Shown here one piece after another: positions 5,422 through 32,241 of a DNA stretch of 64,000 nucleotides. This DNA comes from Actinokineospora auranticolor (GTDB taxonomy: Bacteria; Actinomycetota; Actinomycetes; Mycobacteriales; Pseudonocardiaceae), in the NCBI RefSeq assembly GCF_002934265.1, contig NZ_PTIX01000002.1, positions 372,001 to 436,000 of the forward strand, read 5' to 3'. A program made the position numbers and the translations under genes. Numbering within the stretch: the stretch's first letter is position 1; each line of letters starts with the position of its first letter. The notes below the pieces were generated by a model. That model had not been told where the DNA came from. It saw only the letters and a program-made list of their open reading frames with translations, and did not search any database.

Positions 5422-6330
5422 CTAGGCCGGCCAGGTCCACCGGACGCCGACGATCGGGGACTCGGTGTCGGTGATGACGGCGTGGATGCCGCCGAAGGTG
5501 CCCACCTCCAGGTTGGCCAGCCGGACCTCCGGCTCGTCCGCCGCGTCCTGGGTGAAGGCGTAGCTCGACGTGGGCAGCAGCGCGGGGTGGAAGTTGACCT
5601 CCACCAGGTAGTCCCGCACGCCCCGGCGGCACGCCCGCGAGTACCGGTCCGCCCGCGCGTCGCCGAACCACCGCACCTCGTACTCGAACACCGCCGTCTG
5701 CCCGGCCGACAGCCGCCGGTCGAACAGCACCTCCGCCGCCGTGAACCGGCTCGACGGCACCGACCGCACCCGGCCCAGCGCGCAGCCCACCGGGGCCAGC
5801 AGCACCGGCAGCGCGTGGTCCCCCGGGTCCGCGCGGTGCAGCACCACCATCGACCCCAGCGAGTCCACTTCGGACCGCACCAGGACCCGGACCACCGTCC
5901 GCACGTCCCGGCCCCCGACGTCGACGAAGTGCCGGTCGTGCACGCTCAGGTACGTCAGCTCCCCCGCCCCCGGCTCCCCCAGCTCGGCCAGCACCGACGG
6001 CAGCCCCGAGGTGTCGTCCCACAGCGTCTCGTGCGGGCGGACGACGCCGCCCCGCGACACCCAGCGGCCCCGCGGCTTGCGGGGTCCCAGCAGTCCGGTC
6101 AGGCAGCCGCGCGGGAGGGCGAGGACCTCCTCGATCACCTCGACCGCGCGCAGCGACTCCGGGCGCTCGGGGCGGGTCCGGCCCCGGCGCCAGTAGCTCA
6201 GCGTGGACAGGCTCACCCGCACGCCGTGCGCGGCGAGCTTCCGTTGTAGCTGGTCGAGGCTCATACCGCGGTCCTCGATGGCGCCGGTCAGGGCGGTCGG
6301 GAAGGTGTCCAGCGGGATCGGGTGGTGCAC
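5422..6330 (-). CDS. Helix-turn-helix domain-containing regulator
   Basis: This 302-residue protein has an N-terminal XRE-like HTH (about residues 10-65, around GMSLDQLQRKL and STLSYWRRG). A long C-terminal region of about 210 residues is rich in beta-type sequence and has no motif I recognise. Proteins of this build occur in actinobacteria as HTH plus uncharacterised sensor region. The HTH predicts DNA binding; the ligand and targets are unknown. It ends beside the DUF4265 gene and lies downstream of the S1 protease on the same strand, separated by a hairpin. Confidence 0.75.
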   Translation of the reverse strand: MHHPIPLDTFPTALTGAIEDRGMSLDQLQRKLAAHGVRVSLSTLSYWRRGRTRPERPESLRAVEVIEEVLALPRGCLTGLLGPRKPRGRWVSRGGVVRPHETLWDDTSGLPSVLAELGEPGAGELTYLSVHDRHFVDVGGRDVRTVVRVLVRSEVDSLGSMVVLHRADPGDHALPVLLAPVGCALGRVRSVPSSRFTAAEVLFDRRLSAGQTAVFEYEVRWFGDARADRYSRACRRGVRDYLVEVNFHPALLPTSSYAFTQDAADEPEVRLANLEVGTFGGIHAVITDTESPIVGVRWTWPA

Positions 6331-6416: not shown

Positions 6417-8255
6417 TCAGAAACCGCCGAGGCGGGTGACGGTCAGGGTGAAGGTGGTCTTGCCCGTCTTGCCGTCCGCCGAGGTGGCCGTGATGGTGAT
6501 CGGGTAGGTGCCCGCGGGGGTGCCGAAGCCGGTGAAGAACCAGACGTTGCTGGCACCGCCTTGGGCGATGGTGGCCGGGTTGAACGTCACCTGGGTGCCC
6601 GCGGGCGCGCCGGTGGCGGTCAGGCGGAGGGTGCCCGTGCCGCCACTGGCACGCACAGTGGTCTGGACCAGGCTACCCGCAAAACCGCTGCCTGACGCGG
6701 GTGTGACTGTCACGGTCACGTCACCGGTCGGCGGCTCCTGGGTACCTTCGACGGTCAGCGAGACGGTGGTCGTCGCGGTCTTGCCGCCGGTGTCGGTGCC
6801 GGTCACGGTGATGGTGGACGTGCCTGCCGCCGCCGTGGCGGAGACGTCGAGGGTGAGCTTGGCCGAGGAGCCCGCGGCGATGGTGGTCGGCTGGAAGACC
6901 GCCTTCACCCCGGTCGGCAGGCCCGCGGCGGACAGGGTCAGGTTCTGACCGCGGCCACCGCCGGTGCTGTTGATGGTGGTGGAGACGTACTTGCCCTTGG
7001 CGGCCTTCACGCTGCTGGGCGAGGCCGCGAGGGTGAGGTCGCCGGGCTCGGGGTTGCCGCCGCCGGTGACCGTGAGGGAGAACTTGCCGGTGGCGGTCTG
7101 GCCGCCGGACGTGGTCGCGGTCACGGTCACCTCGTAGGTGCCGTTGGCCGCGTCGGCCGCCGCGTCGAAGGTGAGCTTCGCGGACGAGCCGGTGGCCACC
7201 GAGGTGGGCTGGAACACAGCCTTCACCCCGCTGGGCAGGCCGGACGCCGAGAGGGTCGCGTTCTCGCCGCTGCCGGTGGTGGCGACGGTCGTGGACAGGT
7301 ACTTGCCCGCCGCGACGCTGCCGCTACCCGGGTCGACGCGGACGCCGAGGTCGCCGGTGGGCGGCTCGGTGACGGTGCCGACCTCCTGCTTGACCCAGTC
7401 GCCCATCTCGTTGTCGAGGCGACCGTAGATCGAGTACCACTTGAAGTCCGACCGGCTCCACGACGCGACGCCGTAGACCTTGCCGCCGACCACGAGCGGG
7501 CCGCCGCTGTCGCCGGGCAGGATCGTGACCCGCCCGTCGTTGTAGCCCGCGCAGATCATGTACGCGGACTTGAACCCGGCGCCGACGCCCTGGCACAGCG
7601 AGTCGCCGTTGACGATCGGCAGGGTGGCCTTGTCGAGGGTGGCGTCGAAGGAGTTGTCGTCGAAGTCCTTCTTGCCGTACCCGAAGCCCTGGCCGCTCTT
7701 GCCGGGGGCCGCGCCGCCCGCGTCCGCCGAGGTGGCGAACTGCGGGTAGGCCGCGCCGCCCTTGAGCGGGATGTCGCGGTCCACGGTCACCACGGCCACG
7801 TCGTAGCCCTGGTCGAAGTTGACGTACTTCGGGTGCTTCTTGTAGCTGACGACCCCGACGGCCAGGCCGGACCCGCTGCCGCCCTGGTAGTCCTTGAGGT
7901 CGTCGAGGCCGTAGACGAACTTCTTCTCACCGGCCGCGTCCGCGCAGTGCGCCGCGATCAGGATCTTGCGCGGCGCCACGACGGTGCCGGTGCAGGTCTG
8001 TCCCTCGGGCCGGGGCCCACCGGCGCGGATACCCGCGACGATGCCCGGGAACTCGCTCACGGTGGCGTCCTCACCGTTGGCGAACATCGGCGAGGCGTCC
8101 CCGGAGCGGGCGGGGACGGTGGAGCCCTCGTAGTTCGCTGGGGCGTTGGCCGGTGGTGCCGCCTCGGCCGCCGACGCGATGGTGGCACCGAGTGGGACCA
8201 GCACCGTGGCCGCGGCCAGGGCCAGCAGGCCCCAGGACCGTGGTGTTCTCTTCAC
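6417..8255 (-). CDS. Secreted S1 family (chymotrypsin-fold) serine protease with three C-terminal Ig-like repeats
   Basis: This is a 612-residue exported protein with a signal peptide (to about residue 29) and an S1 domain (about 60-290). The triad is His103 (AAHC), Asp152 (YDVAVV) and Ser250 (GDSGGP). Three related repeats of about 90 residues (roughly 302-396, 402-489 and 497-606) follow. Each contains a beta-rich core with a phrase like TGVKAVFQPT or AGTQVTFNPA, as in bacterial Ig-like adhesive domains. The residue six before the catalytic Ser is Thr instead of the trypsin Asp189, and the usual Cys191 is Leu, so specificity is not trypsin-like. The repeats may bind substrate or cell surface. 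Confidence 0.88.
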   Translation of the reverse strand: MKRTPRSWGLLALAAATVLVPLGATIASAAEAAPPANAPANYEGSTVPARSGDASPMFANGEDATVSEFPGIVAGIRAGGPRPEGQTCTGTVVAPRKILIAAHCADAAGEKKFVYGLDDLKDYQGGSGSGLAVGVVSYKKHPKYVNFDQGYDVAVVTVDRDIPLKGGAAYPQFATSADAGGAAPGKSGQGFGYGKKDFDDNSFDATLDKATLPIVNGDSLCQGVGAGFKSAYMICAGYNDGRVTILPGDSGGPLVVGGKVYGVASWSRSDFKWYSIYGRLDNEMGDWVKQEVGTVTEPPTGDLGVRVDPGSGSVAAGKYLSTTVATTGSGENATLSASGLPSGVKAVFQPTSVATGSSAKLTFDAAADAANGTYEVTVTATTSGGQTATGKFSLTVTGGGNPEPGDLTLAASPSSVKAAKGKYVSTTINSTGGGRGQNLTLSAAGLPTGVKAVFQPTTIAAGSSAKLTLDVSATAAAGTSTITVTGTDTGGKTATTTVSLTVEGTQEPPTGDVTVTVTPASGSGFAGSLVQTTVRASGGTGTLRLTATGAPAGTQVTFNPATIAQGGASNVWFFTGFGTPAGTYPITITATSADGKTGKTTFTLTVTRLGGF

Positions 8256-30390: not shown

Positions 30391-30542
30391 GCCGCAACAG
30401 TGTCCCGGAAGGACTCAAACCAAACATCGTTTTGAGCCACGCACAACACCTCTGCCCCGTTCGCCACCCACCGGTCCCTCGCGAACCCCAACAGCACCCG
30501 TTGCCGTGATGTCAACGCGCTGGGCGCCACACAGAAAATAAG

Positions 30543-30583
30543 AAAGCCTGGGGACGGCCCCAAAGGGGCGGCACCCAGGCTTT
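30543..30583 (+). terminator. Orphan terminator-like hairpin upstream of the HEPN gene
   Basis: AAAGCCTGGG (30543-30552) pairs with CCCAGGCTTT (30574-30583), and an inner GCCCC/GGGGC hairpin (30557-30569) fills the loop. It lies between two divergent genes, so no known gene ends into it. It is either an attenuator in the leader of the downstream gene or the relic of a displaced gene. Confidence 0.65.
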
Positions 30584-30624
30584 AGTCATCGTGCTCAACG
30601 CACTGGTTAGGAGTGAACCACACC

Positions 30625-32241
30625 GTGGCCAACACTGTCAACACTCGGGCTGGCTTGCTGGCGAAAGACCCTTTCGCCAAGCATGTCGCTGCGCGGCTGG
30701 CCGACTTCTTCGCGGACACCACTCCGTGGCCACGGCGACTGTGGGACGTGGGCAGCGTGCTCGCGCTCCGCGAGGCGGTGGAGGCGGGCAATTGGCTCCG
30801 TGCCCATGTTCTCTCAGGAGCTTCGGTGGCCTGGTACCTGCACGATCTGGAACGCGCGCTAGGCCCTGACCGGGGGCTCGGCGATGGGCGCTTGCGTCGC
30901 GAACTCACCGATCTGCTGCGCAACGGCTTGTCCCCGGACGGACAAGACCGCCGAAAGCTGATCGAGCTCCTACCCGCGATCCAGAAGAACTACCTGACCC
31001 GCTGGGCGGACAGTGTCGACTCATCCCGCCCGCCTTCAGCAGAGCGGCTGGCCAAGGCTGTTGCCACACATCTCCTCGACTGCGGCCACAGCTCCGGGCA
31101 GCTGCACCGCTGGGTCCGAGCGTTCACTCGCGAGCCGCAGGCATCACTGGCCGATCTGCTGGACTCCGCTCGCGAACTGGCGGACAGGGTGGACCAGGAG
31201 TTCGAGGTCATCGTCCCGTTCATCTCCGTACCGGAGCAGCAACTACTAGTCGAACACCTTCGTGAATGGCTCTCTCCCGACGAGGCTTCGGCCTGGTTCA
31301 AAGCGCAGAACCTCACCAACCCCGAGCGCCAGAACGGCGCGTTCCGCTACCGCGTCTCGGCGAAGGACGCTGTTGCCGACGCCCGAACCATGGGTGGACT
31401 GGTCCGGCGCATGGAGAACCGGTGGTCCTACTCCCGGAGATCGGACAAGACGTTGCGGCCGTGCGGCAAGGTGTGGGTCATGGGTGCGGCGAAGCCGCTA
31501 CCGCTGCTCCCCCCGCCGCGTGGCGTCGCGATTCCCTCGCTCATGCGGGAGCGAACCATGTTCGACGTGCAGAAGAGCGACCGACTGGATGAAGCGCTCG
31601 AGCTCGCCGCGCCGCTGGACGCCGGTCCCTCGACCTCGGCGGTGACCGGGGCCTGGGCGGCGATCGAGGCGTTGCTCTTCCACCCCGGCGACAAGGCCGA
31701 GACCAAGGTGGGACGAGCTGTGGCCGGAGACCGCCTCGCGGCGATCACCGCCTGCTCTTGGCCGCGTGCCGAGCTGACAGCGCTGTCGTACCAGCATCAA
31801 CCTCCTGCTCCAGACAAGCTCAGCGAGGACTTGGCGAATTGCCCCAACAACCAGCGCCGTTCGGAGGTAGTCGCGAACGCCTTGGGCAACACTTCACTGG
31901 TGATCACAACCGCGAGCGATAGCGCTGCGGCCGACCGCATGACGGCGATGGTGCAGGATCCCCAGCCGCAACTGGAGAGCGTCCGCCGGGTCTTCAGAGG
32001 GATATTCAGGCGGCTCTACCGGCAGCGGAACATCGTCGCGCACGGTGGGAGCACCGGCGGGGTTGCGCTCGAAGCAGCGCTTCGAACAGCGGCACCGCTG
32101 GTCGGCGCGGGACTCGACCGGATTGTGCACGCGAAGCTCGCGGCGGGTGTCAAGCCACTGGCGCTGGCGGCCGGAGCGGAGAACTCGCTGGCTTTGGTCG
32201 GGGACGCCATGGGGCAGCCGGTGACCGGTTTGCTCGGCTGA
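30625..32241 (+). CDS. Hypothetical protein with C-terminal HEPN-like (ApeA-type) domain
   Basis: This is a soluble protein of about 538 residues. The first 320 residues are mostly helical and unrecognised. Near residues 330-350 a helix AVTGAWAAIEALL appears, and 120 residues later comes RRLYRQRNIVAHGG with an R-x4-H motif (Arg468 to His473). This pairing is typical of HEPN domains of the Apea/abortive-infection kind, where Arg and His form the RNase site. The gene has lower G+C (about 57-60% in parts) and more rare codons such as CTA than its neighbours, suggesting transfer. It is monocistronic. AGGAG lies 11 bases before the GTG at 30625; a GTG at 30613 is possible. The defence role is inference. 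Confidence 0.75.
   Translation: MANTVNTRAGLLAKDPFAKHVAARLADFFADTTPWPRRLWDVGSVLALREAVEAGNWLRAHVLSGASVAWYLHDLERALGPDRGLGDGRLRRELTDLLRNGLSPDGQDRRKLIELLPAIQKNYLTRWADSVDSSRPPSAERLAKAVATHLLDCGHSSGQLHRWVRAFTREPQASLADLLDSARELADRVDQEFEVIVPFISVPEQQLLVEHLREWLSPDEASAWFKAQNLTNPERQNGAFRYRVSAKDAVADARTMGGLVRRMENRWSYSRRSDKTLRPCGKVWVMGAAKPLPLLPPPRGVAIPSLMRERTMFDVQKSDRLDEALELAAPLDAGPSTSAVTGAWAAIEALLFHPGDKAETKVGRAVAGDRLAAITACSWPRAELTALSYQHQPPAPDKLSEDLANCPNNQRRSEVVANALGNTSLVITTASDSAAADRMTAMVQDPQPQLESVRRVFRGIFRRLYRQRNIVAHGGSTGGVALEAALRTAAPLVGAGLDRIVHAKLAAGVKPLALAAGAENSLALVGDAMGQPVTGLLG

Follow-up and report, generated by a model that had tools for sequence, protein, structure and literature searches.

ApeA, a bacterial protein known to cut RNA in defense against phages, is classed as a HEPN system (excerpt of PMC7699616), and a preprint title in the reference list of PMC13405049 reports its activation by deoxydinucleotides. 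The PDB holds 9HXL, titled 'Putative bacterial antiviral defense protein Thr1ApeA', and Ec2ApeA (9HXD and related entries). In AbiF, the noncoding RNA RCd22 binds and neutralizes a HEPN-related toxin, and Cas13 has been suggested to descend from AbiF-like RNases (excerpt of PMC12373285). Literature searches of open-license PMC papers found no RNA partner of ApeA in titles or abstracts. Here we describe an ApeA-type gene of Actinokineospora auranticolor that is accompanied by a small structured RNA gene. We judge it just probable that the two form a module in which the cognate RNA silences or gates the RNase.

The window, a 64,000-nucleotide stretch of contig NZ_PTIX01000002.1, carries a genuine open reading frame of 542 codons at 30613-32241 of the + strand. 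A first-pass annotation had given its product 538 residues, a length that fits an alternative GTG start at 30625; the GTG at 30613 yields 542 residues, and in this numbering the Arg468 and His473 of that annotation become R472 and H477. The 5' boundary given in that annotation, 30543, falls within the RNA gene described below (about 30605-30534, - strand). Codon use differs from that of both neighbors, as had been noted, with a GC3 of 0.794 against 0.936 for the upstream permease gene and 0.960 for the downstream MFS gene. The lower GC content also reported for the gene holds against the downstream neighbor (0.670 versus 0.706) but not against the permease gene (0.663). The view that the gene interrupts an otherwise ordinary region agrees with the genomes of 15 same-genus relatives, none of which has a match to the HEPN protein. 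In five of these the permease and MFS genes lie side by side, in two a metallo-beta-lactamase gene is present in the stretch around the orthologous MFS gene, and in eight neither the permease nor the metallo-beta-lactamase gene is found within 1.5 kb of the orthologous MFS gene. Because these relatives lack it, the HEPN gene is most simply read as an insertion between the permease and MFS genes.

From residue 25 to its end the protein matches PDB 9HXL (phmmer against PDB, E 3.8e-92), which replaces the earlier impression that its first 320 residues were unrecognizable. A profile of the family also matches Ec2ApeA weakly (E 1.7e-6); most of this match comes from the R-N-x3-H region, and another stretch, in the middle, is weak when taken alone (i-Evalue 2.7). 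Both sequence features singled out previously, AWAAIEALL and YRQRNIVAHGG, are present. All 50 homologues in an alignment of 50 have R472, N473 and H477 (codons at 32026-32043, + strand) as well as Y469, W348 and E352. R-x4-H is the HEPN catalytic site. Across 82 homologous loci, 79 have R-N-x3-H, the exceptions (L046, L057, L108) being broken or frameshifted. The window protein matches no Pfam, PADLOC or NCBIfam family even at E<=10, the Pfam and PADLOC ApeA models match none of the 50 homologues at E<=0.1, and Pfam detects no Abi_2 domain in the window protein or its homologues. Database names such as 'integrase' and 'class I SAM-dependent methyltransferase' on four plasmid homologues (L024, L026, L027, L029) have no Pfam support in related proteins and were set aside as probably propagated. 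Judged from its sequence, the window protein is an ApeA-type HEPN protein with an intact R-N-x3-H site. The earlier call of a putative Apea-type HEPN RNase thus stands on homology to 9HXL and, more weakly, Ec2ApeA, on the invariant motif and on homologues in 18 plasmid records. The label 'undescribed' does not suit the protein, which is a relative of ApeA and so of a known kind; it is the RNA partner for which we found no earlier description.

Homologues of the HEPN protein have a wide but patchy distribution. Within the family, 17 of 390 genomes have one, a count that takes in the window's own genome and two weak partial matches. They also occur in 10 of 394 genomes of the class (the window's own again included), 18 of 72,556 plasmid records and three IMG/VR contigs, and phage records gave no match. 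Genome contigs yielded nothing to a single-protein query and 132 loci to an alignment query, of which 80 were kept. Record titles place the homologues in Actinomycetota, Acidobacteria, Proteobacteria and one Myxococcaceae MAG. At a Pandoraea locus, a C4 antisense RNA (RF01695, 62.4 bits) is found some 300 bases past the HEPN gene (L105:7856-7950, + strand), which suggests a prophage or satellite context.

The gene had been described as standing alone, a claim that fails on the presence of a conserved structured RNA gene paired with it. In the window this RNA of about 70 nt lies at 30534-30605 on the - strand, divergent from the HEPN gene, its ends being placed from the promoter and the U-rich tail. 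The order of parts is promoter, small hairpin P1, CU(A/U)A linker, long hairpin P2 and U-rich end. All on the - strand, a -35 element TTGACA (30636-30641, six of six consensus positions) is followed after 18 nt by a weak extended -10, (TGG)TTCACT (30612-30617, three of six), and a stricter promoter scan lists none in the window because of this weak -10. P1 (GUGC-GUUGA-GCAC, 30591-30603) is drawn from the predicted fold, and another stem outscored it in a simple stem scan. It is followed by a conserved linker that includes CUAAA (30581-30590) and by P2 (30546-30580), which contains a conserved C.C mismatch and is defined by fold and covariation. The U-rich 3' end (30535-30545) reads as an intrinsic terminator tail. 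The window RNA has a predicted folding energy of -36.9 kcal/mol (z -5.3). Since the promoter (30612-30641) and the beginning of the HEPN gene overlap, the two genes are probably co-regulated in the window.

Covariation argues that the hairpin is maintained as RNA, its structure being conserved more than its sequence. The 15 actinobacterial copies of alignment A3 have pairs in 96.9% of 191 cells, and nine of 13 pairs have changed on both sides, values reached by none of 500 shuffles; at one stem pair the window has U.C where the 14 other copies have A-U. The corresponding figures for 35 copies (A5) are 95.0% and 12 of 13 pairs, again with no shuffle in 500 as high, in an alignment made with the model and so leaning towards the structure. 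A separate alignment of nine Betaproteobacteria and one IMG/VR contig (A6), with a structure drawn by hand on the basis of one member's fold and then fitted to other members, gave 91.8% paired cells and eight of 15 pairs changed on both sides (0 of 500 shuffles), although its number of further pair types was not unusual (287 of 500 shuffles as high). The C.C mismatch lies mid-helix in 35 of 35 A5 rows and nine of 10 A6 rows, and the linker reads CUAA, CUUA, CUUG or CUAC in 32 of 35 A5 rows, counts in which related sequences recur. P1 stems in 40 loci scored a mean of 6.70 against 5.42 after single-base shuffling, with related sequences likewise counted repeatedly, and were clearest in betaproteobacteria. 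The betaproteobacterial RNAs also have a long, variable apical part of P2 and a separate terminator after the hairpin.

Several observations assign transcription to the strand opposite the window's HEPN gene. Cells with G-U outnumber those with A-C by 9:0 in A3 and 15:2 in A5. Of 101 upstream regions, related sequences being counted more than once, 87 carry a stem with a T-rich tail on the RNA strand and 42 carry one on the other. Over the 65 nt upstream of the linker in 78 loci, with the same repeated counting, the mean sigma-70-like score was 8.13 for the RNA strand and 3.93 for its complement, compared with 3.63 after shuffling in 2-base blocks; TGnTAnnnT occurred in 47 of these loci on the RNA strand and in one on the other, against a mean of 3.8 in shuffles. 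TTGACN with TAnnnT precedes the RNA in six acidobacterial loci (L091, L092, L094, L096, L102, L104) and in L118 and L122. A + strand 5' leader of the HEPN mRNA was rejected, since the - strand is favored by G-U cells, by promoters and by T-rich tails, and the RNA of a Micromonosporaceae group is located downstream of the gene. A leader or attenuator of the neighboring permease gene was also rejected, as the R3 model introduced below found no match in any of the 15 same-genus genomes, which are without the HEPN gene.

We searched with two models of the RNA. R2, built from 15 copies, was run on 100 sources totaling 1.29 Mb, some of them close relatives and hence counted repeatedly, and gave 52 matches at E<0.01. 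Beside a HEPN gene lay 47 of these (the 15 training copies and 32 others), including the window copy at 30585-30533 (E 1e-14, itself a training member). Of the remaining five, four fall on these hairpins read from the reverse strand, and the fifth is L111:10405-10452. This last match, on the - strand about 2.8 kb beyond the HEPN gene of Nonomuraea glycinis, appears to be a second RNA copy with no second HEPN homologue recognized, and is perhaps a remnant duplication. R3, applied to 66 non-training sources, gave 31 matches at E<0.01, one in each of 31 loci and every one next to the HEPN gene, with 13 loci shared with R2 and relatives again recurring. Rfam returned nothing at the RNA position at gathering scores in nine loci and no RNA match in ten loci at E<=1. 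In the window region, searched to E 10, one match overlaps the hairpin, on the + strand; it is to the Guanidine-II riboswitch and was taken as chance, its 15.1 bits (E 7.3) falling well short of the gathering score of 32. Four Crossiella-type homologues have a similar hairpin that the models match weakly (R2 E 0.66-9.9; L080 R3 0.035), and no RNA was assigned to L028, L049 and L097.

Run with stricter filters on the family's 390 whole genomes, R3 gave 25 matches at E<=0.001. Eight of these, at 46 bits or more, all lie beside close HEPN homologues; copies from those genomes trained R3, and the result therefore shows that nothing else in the 390 genomes scores as high. A non-training match of 34 bits adjoins a broken HEPN gene (G082). 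The other matches, 16 of 25 at 26-36 bits, lie away from HEPN genes, and the one inspected (L145) resembles a terminator. This look-alike hairpin (L145:1501-1548, 35.8 bits) has no adjoining HEPN homologue, and four other genomes of genus g6 also gave weak matches; it is possibly a shared terminator or a related orphan RNA. Such matches, and the GC-rich hairpin followed by U-rich sequence, are what one would expect if the element were merely a conserved intrinsic terminator or insulator of neighboring transcripts. A terminator, however, has no need of a C.C mismatch, a CU(A/U)A linker, P1 or an upstream promoter, betaproteobacteria place a separate terminator after the hairpin, and the same-genus genomes without the gene have no match; we regard this explanation as very improbable.

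The RNA is divergent from the HEPN gene in most loci, and other arrangements exist. Seven Streptosporangiaceae and Streptomyces copies have a co-directional variant RNA with a CUAA/CUUA-type linker and a strong terminator, matched by the models on that strand in L082 and L085. In seven Micromonosporaceae loci (L063, L068, L070, L072, L075, L076, L078) a convergent RNA with a -10-like sequence lies downstream, with model matches in all except L070. Paractinoplanes deccanensis (L078) has RNA both upstream and downstream of one HEPN gene (5824-5874 and 7648-7684, - strand), like an intermediate arrangement. Variant RNAs (Streptosporangiaceae, Nonomuraea, L071, L073, L090) lack the C.C hairpin and were grouped by eye from linker, position and terminator, the models reaching them below E 0.01 only in L082 and L085; the acidobacterial RNAs (A7) were likewise picked out by eye, using the same three features. 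In a tree of 79 protein sequences, with arrangement labels set by hand and with broken copies, plasmid loci and some other genome loci excluded, the downstream group forms one clade (support 1.0), seven tips carry co-directional RNA, and parsimony requires at least three changes of arrangement, through which the RNA is kept. An RNA that may be divergent, co-directional or convergent is therefore a gene of its own, and its pairing with the HEPN protein gene across distant bacteria is well supported by comparison of the sequences.

These rearrangements bear on whether the RNA only controls HEPN gene expression, by divergent-promoter interference or as an antisense, and never touches the protein. 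The overlap of the RNA promoter with the gene start in the window is as this would predict. Yet the RNA is also kept where it lies convergent in a Micromonosporaceae group, away from the gene's promoter, and where it is co-directional, in seven other copies; the conservation of structure above sequence, with a C.C mismatch in every A5 row, also speaks against such a role. We consider it improbable.

At least eight broken HEPN genes retain a detectable RNA (L036, L037, L038, L045, L046, L057, L108, G082), whereas two broken copies (G148, G212) have no R3 match, in a tally that leaves out G405, G550 and G673. On three Streptomyces plasmids (L036, L037, L038) the HEPN gene is split or truncated and the adjoining RNA is a strong model match. 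The RNA is also kept beside a frame missing the first part of the protein (L119). Conversely, Streptomyces philanthi (L067) has an open HEPN frame and a degenerate, sub-threshold RNA. The retention of RNA beside broken genes mildly favors a harmless leftover antitoxin, against the evidence of L067.

Since RCd22 of AbiF binds and neutralizes a HEPN-related toxin, we infer by analogy that the RNA is a protein-binding partner that keeps the RNase silent. The HEPN protein would be bound through the P2 hairpin, with the C.C mismatch at its core, and the CU(A/U)A linker, the bound RNA serving either as an antitoxin or as a licensing partner. The pairing might be disturbed when a phage infects or the element is lost, by transcription shut-off or through an activating ligand; the freed protein would then cut host RNA, perhaps tRNA, and the infected cell would stop growing. 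Pointing away from this module are the title-reported activation of ApeA by deoxydinucleotides, which names no RNA, the weak -10 in the window, the degenerate RNA of L067 and the variant RNAs without a C.C mismatch. The RNA could instead be an activator or sensor: without this cofactor, scaffold or bait the HEPN protein would fail to recognize infection, much as in retrons with their RNA component. All of the pairing evidence fits this equally, and the variable apical part of P2 in betaproteobacteria could be the sensor. The closest studied analogue, AbiF with RCd22, is nonetheless inhibitory (excerpt of PMC12373285), and the balance of broken genes with and without RNA fits a leftover antitoxin slightly better, leaving an activating RNA unlikely in our estimation.

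Other ApeA loci delimit the association. The T. rubra locus L103 encodes the tested 9HXL segment and carries the RNA, a training copy that R2 scores at 55.6 bits. Fragments of Ec2ApeA used as queries found seven IMG/VR loci, no plasmid record and, with the short fragment only, no phage record, while PF18739 matched in four of 274 genomes of a second class (three over the cut-off) and in neither of two in the other search. R3 run to E 10 found no RNA at the seven Ec2ApeA-like loci or the four PF18739 loci, and direct upstream inspection revealed no such element at the seven or at L162-L164; weak AT-rich hairpins precede two of the seven. One Ec2ApeA-like gene (L184:4500-6371) apparently occupies a cargo site, and the genes around it look to us like a P2-type prophage. 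From this absence, the RNA marks the Thr1ApeA-like branch, and related ApeA RNases probably function without one. These 11 loci, and the description of ApeA as a HEPN system (excerpt of PMC7699616), would also suit an ordinary single-protein defense gene to which the RNA is incidental. Retention of the RNA through at least three changes of arrangement and in distant bacteria makes that very improbable.

Whether ApeA-type HEPN RNases gated by a dedicated C.C-mismatch-hairpin RNA constitute an unrecognized protein-RNA immune or addiction class, found in Actinomycetota, Pseudomonadota and, by eye, Acidobacteriota, is in our judgment an even call. If so, they would add to AbiF a second case in which a HEPN RNase comes with a noncoding RNA of its own, with a different protein and a different RNA, and would be relevant to the origin of RNA-gated HEPN nucleases such as Cas13. 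If a whole branch of ApeA, one member of which has a solved structure, has a dedicated RNA, then one component has been missing from the work on how that branch is controlled. The prediction is concrete: an RNA of about 70 nt with a defined core and effects on binding and toxicity.

Among known systems, the Thr1ApeA branch (9HXL) is homologous to the window protein from residue 25 onward, with the YRxRNxxxH motif common to both. Ec2ApeA shares that motif, but a partner RNA gene was found in the window branch and at none of the 11 Ec2ApeA-like or PF18739 loci. Like the module proposed here, the type IX retron has a HEPN RNase gated by an RNA-containing partner (excerpt of PMC13405049); in contrast, Pfam reveals no reverse transcriptase in six neighboring window genes and no msDNA is known. 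Type III toxin-antitoxin systems (ToxIN, CptIN, TenpIN) likewise join a predicted RNase to an adjacent structured, terminator-ended RNA gene. Their toxins have the ToxN fold rather than HEPN, and their RNA is upstream and co-directional, whereas the RNA described here is divergent in the window and usually on the opposite strand elsewhere. Type III antitoxins also have tandem repeats, whereas model searches find one RNA unit per flank here, and the RNA is therefore not filed as type III. AbiF/Abi_2 with the abiF noncoding RNA (RF03085) also sets a HEPN-related defense protein beside a terminator-ended noncoding RNA of about 100 nt. The window protein has no Pfam match, and RF03085 is absent from the matches obtained at E<=10 for the window region, at E<=1 for ten loci and at gathering scores for nine; the RNA paired with the ApeA-type gene is mostly divergent, single-unit and of a different structure.
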